Source: Rothia aeria
Lineage (GTDB): Bacteria > Actinomycetota > Actinomycetes > Actinomycetales > Micrococcaceae
Assembly (NCBI GenBank): GCA_002355935.1
Contig: AP017895.1
Location: 1,116,001 to 1,180,000 of the forward strand
Direction: 5' to 3'
DNA: 64,000 nucleotides
The position numbers were made by a program, and so were the translations under genes. Below, one piece after another: positions 53,904-64,000 of the stretch. Under the pieces are notes generated by a model that saw only the letters and a list, made by a program, of their open reading frames with translations, was not told the origin of the DNA and did no database searches. How positions within the stretch are numbered: position 1 is the first letter of the stretch; the number at the start of each line of letters is the position of its first letter.

Positions 53904-54873
53904 ATGACCTCACCAGCACCGGCTAAAACCCCGTCTCGTCCCATTCTCGCTGTCGTTGGCCCCACCGGCACCGGAAAAAGCGCTCTGGCCGTTGCGCTCG
54001 CCAAAAACTGGGGGGTGAATGCATTAACGCCGATTCCATGCAGTTCTATAGGGGTATGAACATCGGTACCGCAAAAATTACTCCCGCCGAAACCCAAGGT
54101 GTTGCGCATTATCTGATCGATATTATGGACCTCACCGAAGAGGCGTCCGTTGCCGAGTTTCAGGCACACGCTCGTGAAGTTATTACCGACATTACCAGCC
54201 GTGGAAAATACCCCATCCTGGTGGGGGATCGGGGCTTTATGTGCGTGCTGCCCTCGATAAACTTGAACTGCCCGGTACCGACCCTGCGGTGCGTGCCCGC
54301 CTTGAAGAAGAAAGCAGGGCCCACGGCATCGGGGCGCTTCGGGCACGCCTGGCGGACGTAGACCCGGACTCGGCCGCCAAACTGAACGATGAACGGCGCA
54401 TTATTCGGGCACTTGAGGTGTATGAGGTAACGGGGCGCCCCTTCTCTGCGTTTATGCCCACCCGCGAGTACGTGAGCGACACTTTGCAGATCGGGCTGAA
54501 CATGGACCGTGCTCGTCTGCACGAACGGCTCCACGACCGTGTGGTGGCTATGGAAAAGGCGGGGCTCTTGGCGGAAGTTGAGCAGCTTGTTGATCGGGGG
54601 CTACGTCAGGGTAAAACAGCCTCCCGCGCCATCGGGTACGCCCAGTTTTTACGCGCCTTTGAAGCCCAAACATCCGGGGCAGATCAACGATACACGGTGG
54701 CGCAGGCGATCGAAGACACAACTGTTGCTACCCGCCAGTTTGCCCGCCGCCAGCTCACCTGGTTCCGGGCCGACCCGCGCGTGCACTGGTTCGACGCCGA
54801 ATCCCCGACCCTCCTTGAGGATACGCTCACGCTCATACAGGGCTATATTGCAGGTTCTGCTAACCTAGCCTAA
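53904..54873 (+). CDS. miaA: tRNA dimethylallyltransferase (two frameshifts)
   Basis: Adds the isopentenyl group to A37 of tRNAs reading U-starting codons. [19 protein letters not shown] is the P-loop; adding A to AAAAA (54003-54007) gives [20 protein letters not shown], and adding G to GGGGG (54223-54227) gives [40 protein letters not shown] and [15 protein letters not shown] are later family motifs. Joined length about 323 residues, normal for MiaA. Located between miaB and dapF, the actinobacterial order. Confidence 0.94.
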
Positions 54874-56168: not shown

Positions 56169-57127
56169 ATGAGCGAGAACGCATCAGCCTGGGCAGATCT
56201 TACCGGGCGCACCCTCACCAAAGGGCAGGGCACCGGTAACGATTTTATTTTCATCACTGACCCCAAAGCCGAGGCGGTGCTTGACGCCGATCTGGTGGCG
56301 CGTGTGTGCGACCGTCATTTCGGGCTGGGCGCCGATGGGTTTATTCGCGCTGCGCATACCGAAACGTTCTCTACGGGGCAGAAAATCCTGGAAAAACACC
56401 CCGAGGCCACCTGGTTCATGGATTACCGCAACGCCGATGGCACGATCTCAGAAATGTGCGGGAACGGTGTGCGCGCCTTCGTTGAGTATCTGCGCACCGA
56501 GGGGCTGATCAGCCTTGAAGTGGGAGAACACGTGAGTATTGGCACCCGCGCCGGGGTAAAAACTGTGGCCCGCACCGACACCGGGTATGCCGTAGATATG
56601 GGCCCCTGGAGCTTTATCCACGGTGATGCCGCGCGTGAGGGCGGTGAAGACTCGCAGGTTTCCGCACGCGGGCTTAAGACCCCGCGCCCGGCTTTATCCA
56701 TCTCTATGGGCAACCCGCACACCGTGGTCATGCTCGGCAGCGACGGGAAACTCGACGGCTTAGACCTAGGCGTCGCCCCAGTGGTCACCCCCGCCCGGAG
56801 AACGGCACGAATGTGGAGTTCGTGGTGCCTCTCGAACTGGAGCATGACTCCGGCGATATTGGGGTCTTAGGGGAGCAGTCTGAGGTGGGAGCTATTCGTC
56901 TGCGTGTGCACGAACGTGGTGTGGGGGAGACCCTCTCCTGCGGCACAGGCGCGTGCGCAGCTGCCGCAGCCACCCGCTTCTGGGGAGGGGAGGACGCACC
57001 CGACGAGTGGCTCGTACATGTTCCTGGAGGCACCCTCGCGGTGACCTTCGTCTTAGGCCCCGACGACCTAGAGCACGTGGTCCTCGCTGGGGGCGCACAG
57101 ATGGTGTATACGGCGCAGCTGAGCTAG
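56169..57127 (+). CDS. dapF: Diaminopimelate epimerase (frameshifted)
   Basis: Interconverts LL- and meso-DAP, the lysine and peptidoglycan precursor. The two catalytic cysteines are present: MCGNGVRAFVEYL (Cys97) and LSCGTGACAAAAATRF. TKGQGTGNDFIFITDP is the N-terminal motif. Adding C to CCC at 56794-56796 gives TPAPENGTNVEFVV and joins the halves; the product has about 319 residues. ATG 56169 follows GAAGGGGCAACG. Confidence 0.94.
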
Positions 57128-59613: not shown

Positions 59614-61640
59614 GTGCAAGAGAGCGTGAGCGCCCCCACCGGTGCTGAACCCGAGACCCTACCGGGGGCCCAGCCTGTGCTTCGTCTGCTTGACGAGGTG
59701 ATTGAGGCAACGGGTGGTCAGCGACGTGAGGGGCAGCGGCTTATGGCGGCCCATGTTGCTCAAGCTTTCGAGCTTGAGCGGCATCTGCTGGTGCAGGCTG
59801 GCACAGGAACCGGTAAATCTTTGGGGTATCTCATCCCCGCACTCCACAAGGTTGGCGACAGTAACAAACCTATTATTGTGGCGACCGCAACCCTCGCTTT
59901 GCAATCGCAGATCGTGAACCGCGATATTCCTCGTCTGCTTGCGGCACTTGAACCGCGCCCCGAGTCGCAGGCCCAGGTGGCGATTCTTAAAGGCCGCAAT
60001 AATTACCTGTGCCTGCATAAGCTAGAAGGTGGGTACCCTGAAGAGGAGCCCGAGGCTCTCTTCGAAGCCCCTGGATCTTCTGGGGCGTCGTCTCGCCTGA
60101 GCGAGGAGGTGCAGCGTTTGCGTGCCTGGGCGGGATGCACCGAGACTGGTGATCGTGATGAAGTGCGCCCCGGTGTCTCAGATAGGGCCTGGGCGCAGGT
60201 GTCTGTGAGTGCCTCAGAATGCTTGGGACGGCGCTGCCCAATGGTTGAGGAGTGCTTCAGCGAAATGGCGCGTACCCGCGCCAACGAATCGGATATTGTT
60301 ATCACCAACCACGCGCTGCTGGCCATTAATTCGTTTGAAGGGCTGGGCGTGCTGCCTGAGCATGACATTGTCATTATTGATGAGGCGCATGAGCTTGCCG
60401 ATCGGGTGACTGGCGCAGTCACCGGTTCCCTGTCGGCGGCGATGGTGCGCCGTGCCGCTCAGGGTATTCGTAAGAACTCAAAAGCTAGCCCGGCCGCTTT
60501 GGAGAACGCGGCTTCATCCCTTGAAGAAGCGTTTCTGGGGGTTCCGGAAGGTTTGCTGAAGGGCCTTGACGGGCGCCTACTCACTGCTGTGTCGGCTGTG
60601 AATGACGCCGCCCGAGGTGCACTGTCGGACTCTAAAACGGATTCGAAAGAGGTGGACGCTGGCCTGCAAATGGCACGTTCGCGTGTTTCTGAGGTGCATG
60701 AGGAAAGCGGGCGTATCCTTGAAGCTTTCGAGAACCGGGAGGTTCTGTGGGTTTCTCGCCCCCGGGTGTTTGAGAACGGCCGTTACCATGATGCGAATGA
60801 TACGGACCCAGCAACTTTGCATATTGCGCCTTTGAGTATTGGTTCTCGTCTGCGGGAGGGCTTGTTTGAGGATCGCACGGTGATTCTTACGAGTGCCACA
60901 CTTGCGGTGGGCGAGTCGTTTGACGCTGCTGCCGGTGCGCTTGGGCTGATGGGTACGGGTGCTCCGCGCTGGGAGGGGATTGATGTTGGATCTCCTTTCG
61001 ACTACCCCAAGCAGGGGGTCATGTATGTTGCTGCGGATCTGCCTAAACCTGGTTTTGGGGTGAGCACCCCGCAGCTTCAGCGGCTTCTCGAATTGTGTGA
61101 AGCAGCTAATGGCGGCGCGTTGGGTTTGTTTTCGTCGAAGAGAGGGGCCGAGCAGGCCGCAGAGTATGTGCGTCAGCACAGCGACTTGACGGTGCTTCTG
61201 CAGGGGAGTCGTCCCTGCGGGCGCTTGTTGACGAGTTCACGGAGGATATGGATGCGTGCCTGTTCGGCACGATGAGCCTCTGGCAGGGTGTTGACGTTCC
61301 CGGAGATTCGTGCCGGTTGGTGGTGATGGACCGGATCCCGTTCCCACGCCCAAACGATCCGTTGGTGCAGGCCCGTACTGAGGCTGTTCAGGCGAACCGA
61401 GGTAATGGTTTTATGGCGGTTTCGGCGTATCATGCTGCGATTCGTATGGCGCAGGGGGCTGGGCGCCTGATTCGTTCTGTGACGGATAGGGGCGTGGTTG
61501 CTGTGCTTGATTCGCGTTTAGCGACTCAAAGCTATGGCGGGTATATTATGCGTTCGATGCCGCCCCTATGGGCTACCCAGAAGAGGGAAGTGGTGCTGGG
61601 GGCACTGACTCGCCTGTCGCAAAGTATCCGTAACGGATAG
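59614..61640 (+). CDS. dinG: DinG-family ATP-dependent DNA helicase (frameshifted)
   Basis: XPD-like superfamily 2 5'-3' helicase. HLLVQAGTGTGKSLGYLIPA is Walker A (about 59-78), DIVIIDEAHELADRV is the DEAH box. Cysteines in NYLC, GCTE and CLGRRCPMVEEC are candidate Fe-S ligands. Motif VI region is MDACLFGTMSLWQGVDVPGD and AQGAGRLIRS. Adding G to GGGG at 61203-61206 gives LLQGESSLRALVDEFTEDMD and joins both frames; about 675 residues. GTG 59614 follows AGGGG. It stands next to lexA, as in many actinobacteria. Confidence 0.93.
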
Positions 61641-61857: not shown

Positions 61858-62541
61858 TTACAGGCTCCGCAGCACCGAGACGACCTTACCCATAACAGTT
61901 GCTTTATCTCCCATAATCGGCTCGTACTGGGAGTTGCGGGGCATCAGCCACGTGTGCCCGTCTACCTGACGGAAAACTTTCACGGTGGCTTCTTCATCCA
62001 GCAGGGCCGCCACGATGTCCCCGTTATCGGCGGTGTGCTGTTCGCGAACCACCACCCAATCGCCGTCACAGATGGCGGCGTCGATCATCGAATCTCCTTT
62101 GACGCGCAGCATAAAGAGCTTGCCGCTGCCAACCAGCTGTTTGGGGAGGGAAAGCACATCCTCAACGGATTGCTCTGCCGTGATGGGCCCGCCTGCCGCT
62201 ATGCGGCCTACCAGGGGGATAGGCACCATATCCTCGTCGCTGACTTCAAAGGTAGGCAGTTCCGGAACTTTGGGCGCTTGGGTATTGGCACGTTGTTCGG
62301 AGTTTCCTGAGGCGTCCAGCACCTCAATTGCTCGCGGCAGTTTAGGGTCACGGCGAATATAGCCCATTTTCTCAAGTCGCCCCAGCTGGTGCGTCACCGA
62401 CGAGAGGGATGCAAGGCCCACCATATCGCCGATTTGGCGCATTGATGGGGGATATCCTTTCTGCTCAATCTCGGTGCGAATAGCGTCCAAAATTTTCTGT
62501 TGGCGCGGAGTTAGGGCCGGGCGTGGGGTCTCGGGTGCCAT
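61858..62541 (-). CDS. lexA: SOS repressor LexA
   Basis: Represses DNA-damage genes and cleaves itself when RecA filaments form. 227 residues: winged-helix DNA-binding domain ([20 protein letters not shown]), cleavage site Ala116-Gly117 ([10 protein letters not shown]), catalytic Ser151 ([13 protein letters not shown]) and Lys188 (EATVKVF). ATG 62541 on the reverse strand has AGAAGG upstream. The divergent LysM gene starts 375 nt away, with possible LexA boxes between. Confidence 0.97.
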
Positions 62542-62619: not shown

Positions 62620-62916
62620 ATCCTATTTTAGAACAAACTTCCTCAAAAACCAAACATTTATTCTAGATTTCCCGTGAAACTTCGAAGAAATTTTTAGTAC
62701 ACATCTACTAGAATTTGGAATAGAGATTCGATATACTCGGTTCTACCTAAGGAACACATCTTCGAAAGCAGAGGTTTGCTCATGATTGCTCATACATCCA
62801 GTGCATGTGTGCAGAGTCTTGCTGATAGCCCGCGTCCGAAGAAACGGGATGATTCGTTACTCGTCCCATCACCACATCAACACCTTTATGACAACCAGCC
62901 AGTGAAAGGACTCGTT

Positions 62917-63471
62917 ATGGATACCCAGGCAAGCCCCGCTATTCCTTCCGGTCTAACGGTTATTCACCCCGCCCGACGTAAATCATCGGCGGCCGTGCGA
63001 CGGCTGGCTCGGGAACGCCAACAGGCTGAACGGGCACGTTCCACGCACCGCGGCGGTTCGGCTGAGAACCCGGCTCAACAGATCTCAGTGACTCAATCAC
63101 CGCGTGACACTCGAGTACCTCAGCAGCAGTCTGGCGGGCGTATCTTTTCGCCCATTAAATATATTCACAGTCGTTTGGGCCGCAGGGGTATGCTCCTGCT
63201 GGGGCTGCCGTTGCTCACACTTGCGGCCCTCATTGTGCTTGGCGCCATCACCCTATTAGCGCCCCAGGGCGCACAGGCTGGAACATCACAACAGACTACG
63301 GCAGTTACTAAGGTGGTTACTGTCAAAGCAGAGCAAACCCTATGGGATATTGCTCATGAGGCGGACCCTGAGACAGACCCTCGGGACACGATTGTGCGCA
63401 TCATTAAACTGAATGATTTACAGAACACCAAGCTTCAGGCTGGTCAACGGCTGGAGGTTCCTGCACGGTAA
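62917..63471 (+). CDS. LysM-domain membrane protein, likely SOS cell-division inhibitor
   Basis: 184 residues: basic cytoplasmic part with RRLARERQQAERARS, one membrane segment (GMLLLGLPLLTLAALIVLGA, about residues 88-110), then a C-terminal extracellular LysM domain (VVTVKAEQTLWDIAHEADPE to QAGQRLEVP). Divergent from lexA, like YneA in Bacillus, DivS in Corynebacterium and ChiZ in Mycobacterium, all SOS-induced division suppressors with this layout. That role is inferred from place and architecture. ATG 62917 follows AAAGGA; ATG 62782 with GAGG is possible. Confidence 0.8.
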   Translation: MDTQASPAIPSGLTVIHPARRKSSAAVRRLARERQQAERARSTHRGGSAENPAQQISVTQSPRDTRVPQQQSGGRIFSPIKYIHSRLGRRGMLLLGLPLLTLAALIVLGAITLLAPQGAQAGTSQQTTAVTKVVTVKAEQTLWDIAHEADPETDPRDTIVRIIKLNDLQNTKLQAGQRLEVPAR

Positions 63472-63593
63472 ATAGTGGCTATGCGAAACATATTTTGTGG
63501 GTCGGGTGTGCAATAGCACCGTCTCAAAAGACCCTGTACCCTAGAAGTTGTGGGTTCAGTGCCTATGGTACAAAGCGATGAATCGGAGGAATG

Positions 63594-64000
63594 ATGGCGC
63601 AGGAACAACCGGTCGTTGCGATCCTGGGGGAGCCTGGCACGTTCGGGGAACTAGCACAGGCTCTTGGACGCGCAGGGGCGCAGGTTCTTGTCACTAAAAC
63701 CTCTAATGAATTGTTGGACGCTGATGGCATGATTATTCCTGGCCATACAAGCTCTATTGAGACTTATCGCACGGTGCAGTCTTTCGATGCTGAACGTGTG
63801 GTGGGGCGTCGTGTGGCTGGGGGACGTCCAGTGCTTTTTGCGGGGGCAGCTTTTGGCATGTTGTTCGAGACAATGGACGATACGACTTCAGCCGGTGCCG
63901 TCGAAGTTAAAGGTATGGGGGAGTGGCCCGGGCATGCCTGTAAGCTCGCTGCTGCTGGTGCCCCTCTCGGTGTACAACAGCTGGTGCCCGCACAAGAAAG
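63594..64000 (+). CDS. HisH-like glutamine amidotransferase lacking the catalytic Cys (partial)
   Basis: First 135 residues, running off the window. VAILGEPGTFGELAQALGRA, DGMIIPG, VVGRRVAGGRPVLFAGAAFG, KGMGEWPG match HisH (the amidotransferase of imidazole glycerol phosphate synthase) in order. But where HisH has G-I-C-V-G-M-Q, this has A-G-A-A-F-G-M, so the nucleophile Cys is gone; the MGWN motif also reads LGVQ. It is therefore likely inactive as a glutaminase. ATG 63594 or 63591 after GGAGGA. Histidine genes follow lexA-LysM in relatives, which fits. Confidence 0.75.
   Translation, partial: MAQEQPVVAILGEPGTFGELAQALGRAGAQVLVTKTSNELLDADGMIIPGHTSSIETYRTVQSFDAERVVGRRVAGGRPVLFAGAAFGMLFETMDDTTSAGAVEVKGMGEWPGHACKLAAAGAPLGVQQLVPAQE

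Follow-up and report, generated by a model that had tools for sequence, protein, structure and literature searches.

Retention of a triad-less, probably pseudoenzymatic HisH protein in Rothia genomes that have lost the histidine pathway

Eight Rothia genomes in which we did not find the histidine pathway still carry an uninterrupted hisH gene whose product has lost all three residues of the catalytic triad. We consider it probable, if not strongly so, that this protein is a HisH-derived pseudoenzyme kept for a role other than that of a glutaminase, most likely protein binding. Several observations argue for this reading, namely that the loss of HisG and HisD matches the loss of the triad in eight of eight genomes, that the frames are intact, that dN/dS is low, that the change took place at least twice, and that shared columns were kept. 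The gene was found at the end of the window, by which we mean the whole stretch of DNA that was analyzed, 64,000 nucleotides (G000:C1:1116001-1180000) from a genome of 2.59 Mb in one contig. Its frame has an ATG at 63591 and a second ATG at 63594, after "cggagga," and ends at the equivalent of 64289. The initial annotation had described the frame as open over the visible part, and this was borne out beyond position 64000, where reading on gave an unbroken ORF of 232 aa. The features that matter here are as follows.

61858 to 62541, minus strand: lexA, a flanking gene recognized from its sequence rather than by a family scan, used as a synteny marker and tree gene
62776 to 63471, plus strand: gene for a LysM-domain protein, the upstream flanking gene, seen at 19 of 20 compared loci
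63472 to 63590, plus strand: 119-base gap, where Rothia amarae (G002) has hisC-like and hisB genes (locus comparison)
63591 to 64000, plus strand: first part of the HisH-like ORF without the triad, whose full length is L007:5592-6290 (ORF reading, profile, alignment, AF2 model)
63738 to 63755, plus strand: former PGVGAF motif, which reads PGHTSS (alignment)
63804 to 63836, plus strand: kept motif GRRVAGGRPVL, residues 72 to 82, with G72, R73, R74, A76, G77, and R79 to L82 present in eight of eight triad-less proteins
63843 to 63845, plus strand: codon of Gly85 (P0001), where the catalytic Cys would stand; all 82 canonical rows have Cys here, and the eight triad-less proteins have Gly (seven) or Gln (one)
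63918 to 63932, plus strand: kept motif GEWPG, residues 110 to 114, in eight of eight triad-less proteins

Other genes of the window call for brief comment. The dapF gene (56169 to 57127, plus strand) lies in two overlapping frames that match positions 4-170 and 196-268 of TIGR00652, a pattern that points to a frameshift and might reflect an error of assembly. The gene for a DinG/YoaA-type helicase (59614 to 61640, plus strand) shows a change of frame near 61203 relative to the uninterrupted 672-aa gene of G005, and these two breaks together hint at indel errors in the G000 assembly. The miaA ORF (54241 to 54873, plus strand) covers only the C-terminal part of its family model (115-287 of 288), and the 5′ part of the gene may lie in another frame. 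The LysM-domain protein, encoded divergently from lexA, gives a sub-threshold match to YneA (37.9 of 60 bits) and, going by this resemblance, is possibly an SOS division inhibitor.

The assignment to HisH, proposed earlier from the order of motifs, proved sound. TIGR01855 matched residues 15-212 of the protein with an E value of 6e-12 and 45.8 bits, and HisH is its nearest NCBIfam family, although the equivalog cut-off of 105.4 was missed; the general model PF00117 gave no match at an E value of 1. An AF2 model, computed with 12 canonical HisH sequences in the alignment, had a pLDDT of 91.7 and a pTM of 0.89. In a structure comparison its top 12 entries were all HisH or fused HisHF (Z scores of 21.0-22.4; 4gud, Z of 22.4 and rmsd of 2.5 over 191 residues), followed by PdxT-type chains with Z scores of at most 18.6. 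By prediction, the protein retains the class-I amidotransferase (HisH) fold. We also looked for a second, intact hisH in the genome with TIGR01855, under which intact HisH proteins score 187-199 bits, and the single match was the gene itself; none of the five PF00117 matches in G000 was a TIGR01855 match. A single-protein scan of genome contigs found no relative, a search for homologous loci covered the best 80 of a larger number, and no promoter-like site was found upstream of the gene by a scan that has little power here.

Alignment to canonical HisH confirmed that both the Cys position and the MGWN segment are altered, as reported in the initial annotation. The canonical set comprised 82 rows (90 minus eight second copies), mostly from Micrococcaceae by their titles, and L094 and L107, which are copies of the triad-less genes of G012 and G023, were kept out of it. 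The Cys, His, and Glu of the triad are present in 82 of 82 of these rows and in none of the eight proteins from genomes without the pathway, where Cys is replaced by G or Q, His by C, A, or D, and Glu by I, V, P, or L. In the window protein, GICVG has become FAGAA with Gly at the Cys85 position, YFVHSY has become YKAEDG, QFHPEK has become QFCPIA (the latter beyond the window), and PHMGWN is deleted or rewritten. We take the PGVGAF segment, also lost, to be the oxyanion strand, and some of the lost segments presumably also dock HisF. In six of the genomes (G000, G005, G012, G013, G014, and G027) the former active site carries consistent motifs of its own: AGA followed by A or G, QFCP followed by I or V, and F/Y-K-A/S-E. 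A sequencing error at the Cys codon was considered and ruled out, since all eight genomes are without the triad Cys, and in the seven besides G000 an unbroken frame likewise encodes none of the three triad residues.

The distribution of these lesions follows that of the pathway. Our genus set consisted of 35 genomes, here called Rothia, although a few bear Kocuria or Curtobacterium titles; it includes Rothia mucilaginosa 141_RMUC (G012), R. amarae, and the metagenome assembly UBA7136 (G023). HisG (PF01634) and HisD (PF00815) are absent from the same eight genomes, i.e., G000, G005, G012, G013, G014, G023, G027, and G033, which we call his-minus. A hisH gene was found in 34 of the 35 genomes, the exception being G031, which is 65% complete and has HisG. 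Among those 34, every HisG-less genome has a triad-less HisH (8/8) and every HisG-bearing genome an intact triad (26/26, corresponding to 23 of the canonical rows plus G010, G022, and G029). A draw across the family found HisG in 291 of 295 genomes, and the four without it all belong to Rothia.

A PF00977 search gave no HisF in any of the eight his-minus genomes. It returned one full-length protein in each of seven, PriA-like by position, together with two weak partial matches in G033, and no match in G023, which is 72% complete. In G002, the one intact relative compared at this locus, a gene for an aminotransferase, taken to be hisC, and one for an IGPD (hisB) separate the LysM gene from hisH; both are missing from the syntenic 119-base gap of the window. 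The earlier proposal that a histidine pathway is decaying stands in a stronger form for the pathway, of which HisG, HisD, and HisF were not found and hisC and hisB are missing from the gap, and fails for hisH itself, which is uninterrupted in eight of eight genomes and has dN/dS values of 0.16-0.24 in the pairs tested. Looking for hisD and hisF, as the initial annotation had advised, gave neither in G000 and a PriA-like PF00977 gene instead. Because HisF was not found, we rejected it as a partner of the triad-less protein as far as the search goes, and the idea of a non-catalytic HisF partner that uses free ammonia loses its ground with the HisF reaction that it would have served.

The his-minus state arose more than once. 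We built a tree from LexA, the C-terminal part of DinG, SseB, InfC, and RplT of 20 of the 35 genomes, in which seven his-minus genomes are grouped (100/100) and G023 falls with G004, G006, and G020 (100/100). These well-supported branches of the neighbor-gene tree force at least two changes. As the pathway is intact in the rest of the family, both changes can be read as losses.

The frame of hisH is uninterrupted in all eight his-minus genomes, including G033, where the TAA is the gene's own stop. NG86 estimates of dN/dS for the triad-less gene were 0.155-0.236 among G012, G013, G014, and G027, and 0.154-0.235 for G012, G013, and G014 against G000, with synonymous change near saturation in the latter. 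Pairs with G005 and the G027-G000 pair are saturated, and G023 has no close relative. Bootstrap upper bounds were 0.24-0.36. The close pairs, at 0.16-0.24, show that the triad-less HisH is under purifying selection. Of five canonical HisH pairs, the two that are not saturated gave 0.049 and 0.074; values for the triad-less protein are two to five times as high, showing that constraint is looser than on the live enzyme. PriA in the same his-minus pairs ranged from 0.056 to 0.300, and InfC values at short distance were erratic, reaching 0.63 on the basis of very few changes, so the method is noisy in that range. In neutral simulations at the observed synonymous differences (2000 draws), the mean numbers of stops were 4.6, 8.9, and 11.0, and 1%, 0%, and 0% of the draws were stop free. 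Thus, in the unsaturated pairs of the six-genome subgroup the triad-less HisH is under purifying selection, and in this measurable group loss of the catalytic residues goes together with a frame kept by such selection, as in a pseudoenzyme.

We then asked which conserved residues survive in the triad-less proteins. The canonical rows have 118 columns with a conservation of 90% or more; all eight triad-less proteins preserve 32 of these, and 44 persist in at most one protein. With an 89-row version of the canonical set, 31 of 117 columns were kept and 44 lost. The two lineages kept largely the same columns: comparing the seven-genome clade with G023, 32 columns are kept in both, 5 and 28 in one only, and 53 in neither (odds ratio of 12, Fisher P of 1.1e-7). 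The kept columns are also grouped along the chain (27 runs, versus a shuffled mean of 47.6 and a minimum of 32). Both statistics carry the reserve that they assume independent columns and the columns are not independent. Under the same assumption, the average score over five HisH proteins taken from the order's other families was lower for kept than for lost columns (3.75 versus 4.43 of 5, P of 0.02), so that the kept set is the less universal, lineage-typical one. By this comparison, the triad-less proteins appear to have dropped near-universal HisH residues around the active site and to have kept the lineage-typical GRR-AG-RPVL, GEWPG, W-x-F, P-x-V-x-W, and ENGPL elements, part of which may be folding core.

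The nearest candidate for a partner is PriA, although it is not the one that we favor. The triad-less hisH lies just upstream of the sole priA in seven of the eight his-minus genomes, with only an ORF of 57-59 aa in between in G000 (L007:6297-6470) and G005. All 35 genus genomes have TrpC, and trpF (PF00697) is absent from the search results of those seven, which leaves PriA as their only candidate for TrpF. The his-minus PriA proteins have diverged too. With position numbers that we assume to carry over to the Rothia proteins by motif, the Trp145 position is occupied by Thr and the Thr105 position by Ser in seven of seven, and the R85 position by Lys in three of seven, R85 and W145 being among the ProFAR-binding residues; the R19 and T170 positions are kept, as are those of the catalytic Asp residues D11, D130, and D175. 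The alignment of loop 5 is uncertain, with a Trp two residues on. The Trp145 and Thr105 positions are linked to the loss of HisA activity in two studies (PMC5404923 and PMC13055916). These features would fit a dedicated non-catalytic subunit of a neighboring, TrpF-only PriA that stabilizes the enzyme or tunes tryptophan synthesis. Against this, the adjacency is ancestral, since hisH precedes priA in all 12 canonical loci that were compared, and G023 keeps a triad-less HisH without a PF00977 match: there, priA is gone from the locus, which reads HisH-like gene, small membrane-like ORF, SseB, and InfC. PriA may be encoded elsewhere in G023, given the incompleteness of the assembly. As a separate observation, the only trpF found in the genus is that of G023 (C43:38380-39682, L090), beside trpC. 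As G023 is also the one his-minus genome in which no priA turned up, TrpF seems to have taken the place of PriA there.

We considered two further neighbors as partners. The membrane-like ORF of 55-59 aa between hisH and priA occurs in G000, G005, G023, and the seven canonical loci examined; it is not in G014 or G033, the space between the genes would not accommodate it in G012, G013, or G027, and the two copies tested had no Pfam match. SseB was not found in the loci of G012, G013, G014, G027, and G033. Neither accompanies the triad-less HisH in all eight genomes, and both were rejected.

Genomes outside the genus provided a comparison. Among the matches listed were 17 HisG-less genomes outside Rothia, with eight more beyond those. 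HisH was not found by TIGR01855 in 16 of the 17. As a control, this search recovered seven of the eight known triad-less HisH proteins but not the one in G033, and it may likewise have overlooked strongly diverged HisH proteins outside the genus. Eight of the 17 genomes gave zero match, and candidate matches in others were set aside: that of G510 is an SNO/PdxT protein (L195), and L199 of G545 reads as nearly the same protein; those of G464, G527, G544, and G584 were judged to be PdxT from two of the four, which were read (L200 and L203); and those of G450 and G334 are PurQ-like and GuaA-like by eye. The remaining genome, G512, is without HisG and has a HisH above the cut-off and two PF00977 genes, for which reason its lack of HisG is probably an assembly gap. 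Five of the 16 genomes without a HisH found (G450, G464, G527, G544, and G584) encode a full-length PF00977 protein. With the reserve that the search missed G033, PriA-family proteins thus do without HisH elsewhere, just as the triad-less HisH does without a detected PriA in G023. A partnership with PriA, as suggested in the initial annotation, is still conceivable, and it is weakened by both these observations.

The reading that we prefer, a pseudoenzyme with a non-glutaminase role, is the best supported, followed by a subunit of PriA and then by a slowly decaying relic. HisH in the Rothia lineage would already have had a second role besides that of glutaminase, probably as a protein-binding or scaffold component acting through the kept elements listed above, and with the loss of histidine synthesis only this second role would have stayed under selection. 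It may be, though we hold this wider version only tentatively, that Micrococcaceae HisH in general has two functions, feeding ammonia to HisF and another for which the lineage-typical residue set is needed with or without histidine synthesis, and that the two losses in Rothia exposed the second as a stand-alone pseudoenzyme. A subunit of PriA appears unlikely in the light of G023, of the ancestral gene order, and of the five HisG-less genomes outside the genus.

It is less likely still that the gene is a relic whose function went with the pathway and that has simply escaped deletion, perhaps through co-transcription with priA. The relaxed constraint (dN/dS of about 0.2 versus 0.05-0.07), the loss of many universally conserved columns, and the position upstream of a needed gene would all suit a relic; they have to be set against frames intact in eight of eight genomes where neutrality predicts several stops per gene, the upper bounds on dN/dS, the retention of largely the same residues in two independent lineages, and the presence of the gene in G023, where no priA was detected. 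We regard as very improbable a new enzyme or ligand-binding protein built on the class-I amidotransferase fold with a remodeled pocket. Such a protein might be read from the consistent motifs at the former active site of the six-genome subgroup; however, the pocket residues differ in G033 and G023, and therefore there is no single new active site common to all eight.

The loss of a pathway usually takes with it the subunits that serve only that pathway. In Rothia, all eight his-minus genomes, which go back to at least two losses, preserve an unbroken gene for a HisH that is without its catalytic residues and for which no HisF partner was found; in the order's other families, by contrast, HisH was not found in most pathway-less genomes. 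One practical consequence is that the label "HisH" in Rothia does not imply histidine synthesis. In culturable Rothia, whether a textbook enzyme has such a second, hidden role could be tested directly. Literature searches, mostly without subscription papers, returned nothing on Rothia and hisH or on PriA, Rothia, and histidine biosynthesis; among the matches listed, nothing relevant appeared on HisH pseudoenzymes and no lead on HisH moonlighting or on amino acid synthesis in R. dentocariosa. The one paper that brings together R. mucilaginosa, auxotrophs, and histidine mentions histidine in connection with streptococci. A report on an R. mucilaginosa metabolic model names histidine once, as a tested substrate, and does not contain the term "auxotroph" (PMC11237427).

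In its predicted fold, its position upstream of priA, and the order of its segments, the Rothia protein is like canonical HisH (PDB 4gud, 1ka9, 7ac8, and 1gpw). Unlike canonical HisH, it lacks the triad Cys, His, and Glu as well as the PGVGAF and PHMGWN segments, and HisF was not found in its genome. Pseudoenzymes form a general class of proteins whose fold is conserved under selection while the catalytic residues are gone, and the triad-less HisH shares these traits; we know of no HisH pseudoenzyme described as such. A parallel is offered by SubTrpF and SubHisA2, PriA enzymes retained after the loss of his or trp genes in Actinomycetaceae (PMC5404923), and by SubTrpF2 (PMC13055916). As in those cases, loss of the histidine pathway has gone along with the reshaping of a retained protein, and the neighboring PriA of his-minus Rothia appears altered at some of the same positions. 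A term search of the main text of PMC5404923 and PMC13055916 gave no mention of HisH or Rothia. Those works are about PriA, whereas the oddity in Rothia is a glutaminase subunit whose catalytic residues are wholly lost, and the gene-loss account known for PriA is thereby broadened to include another product of that locus.
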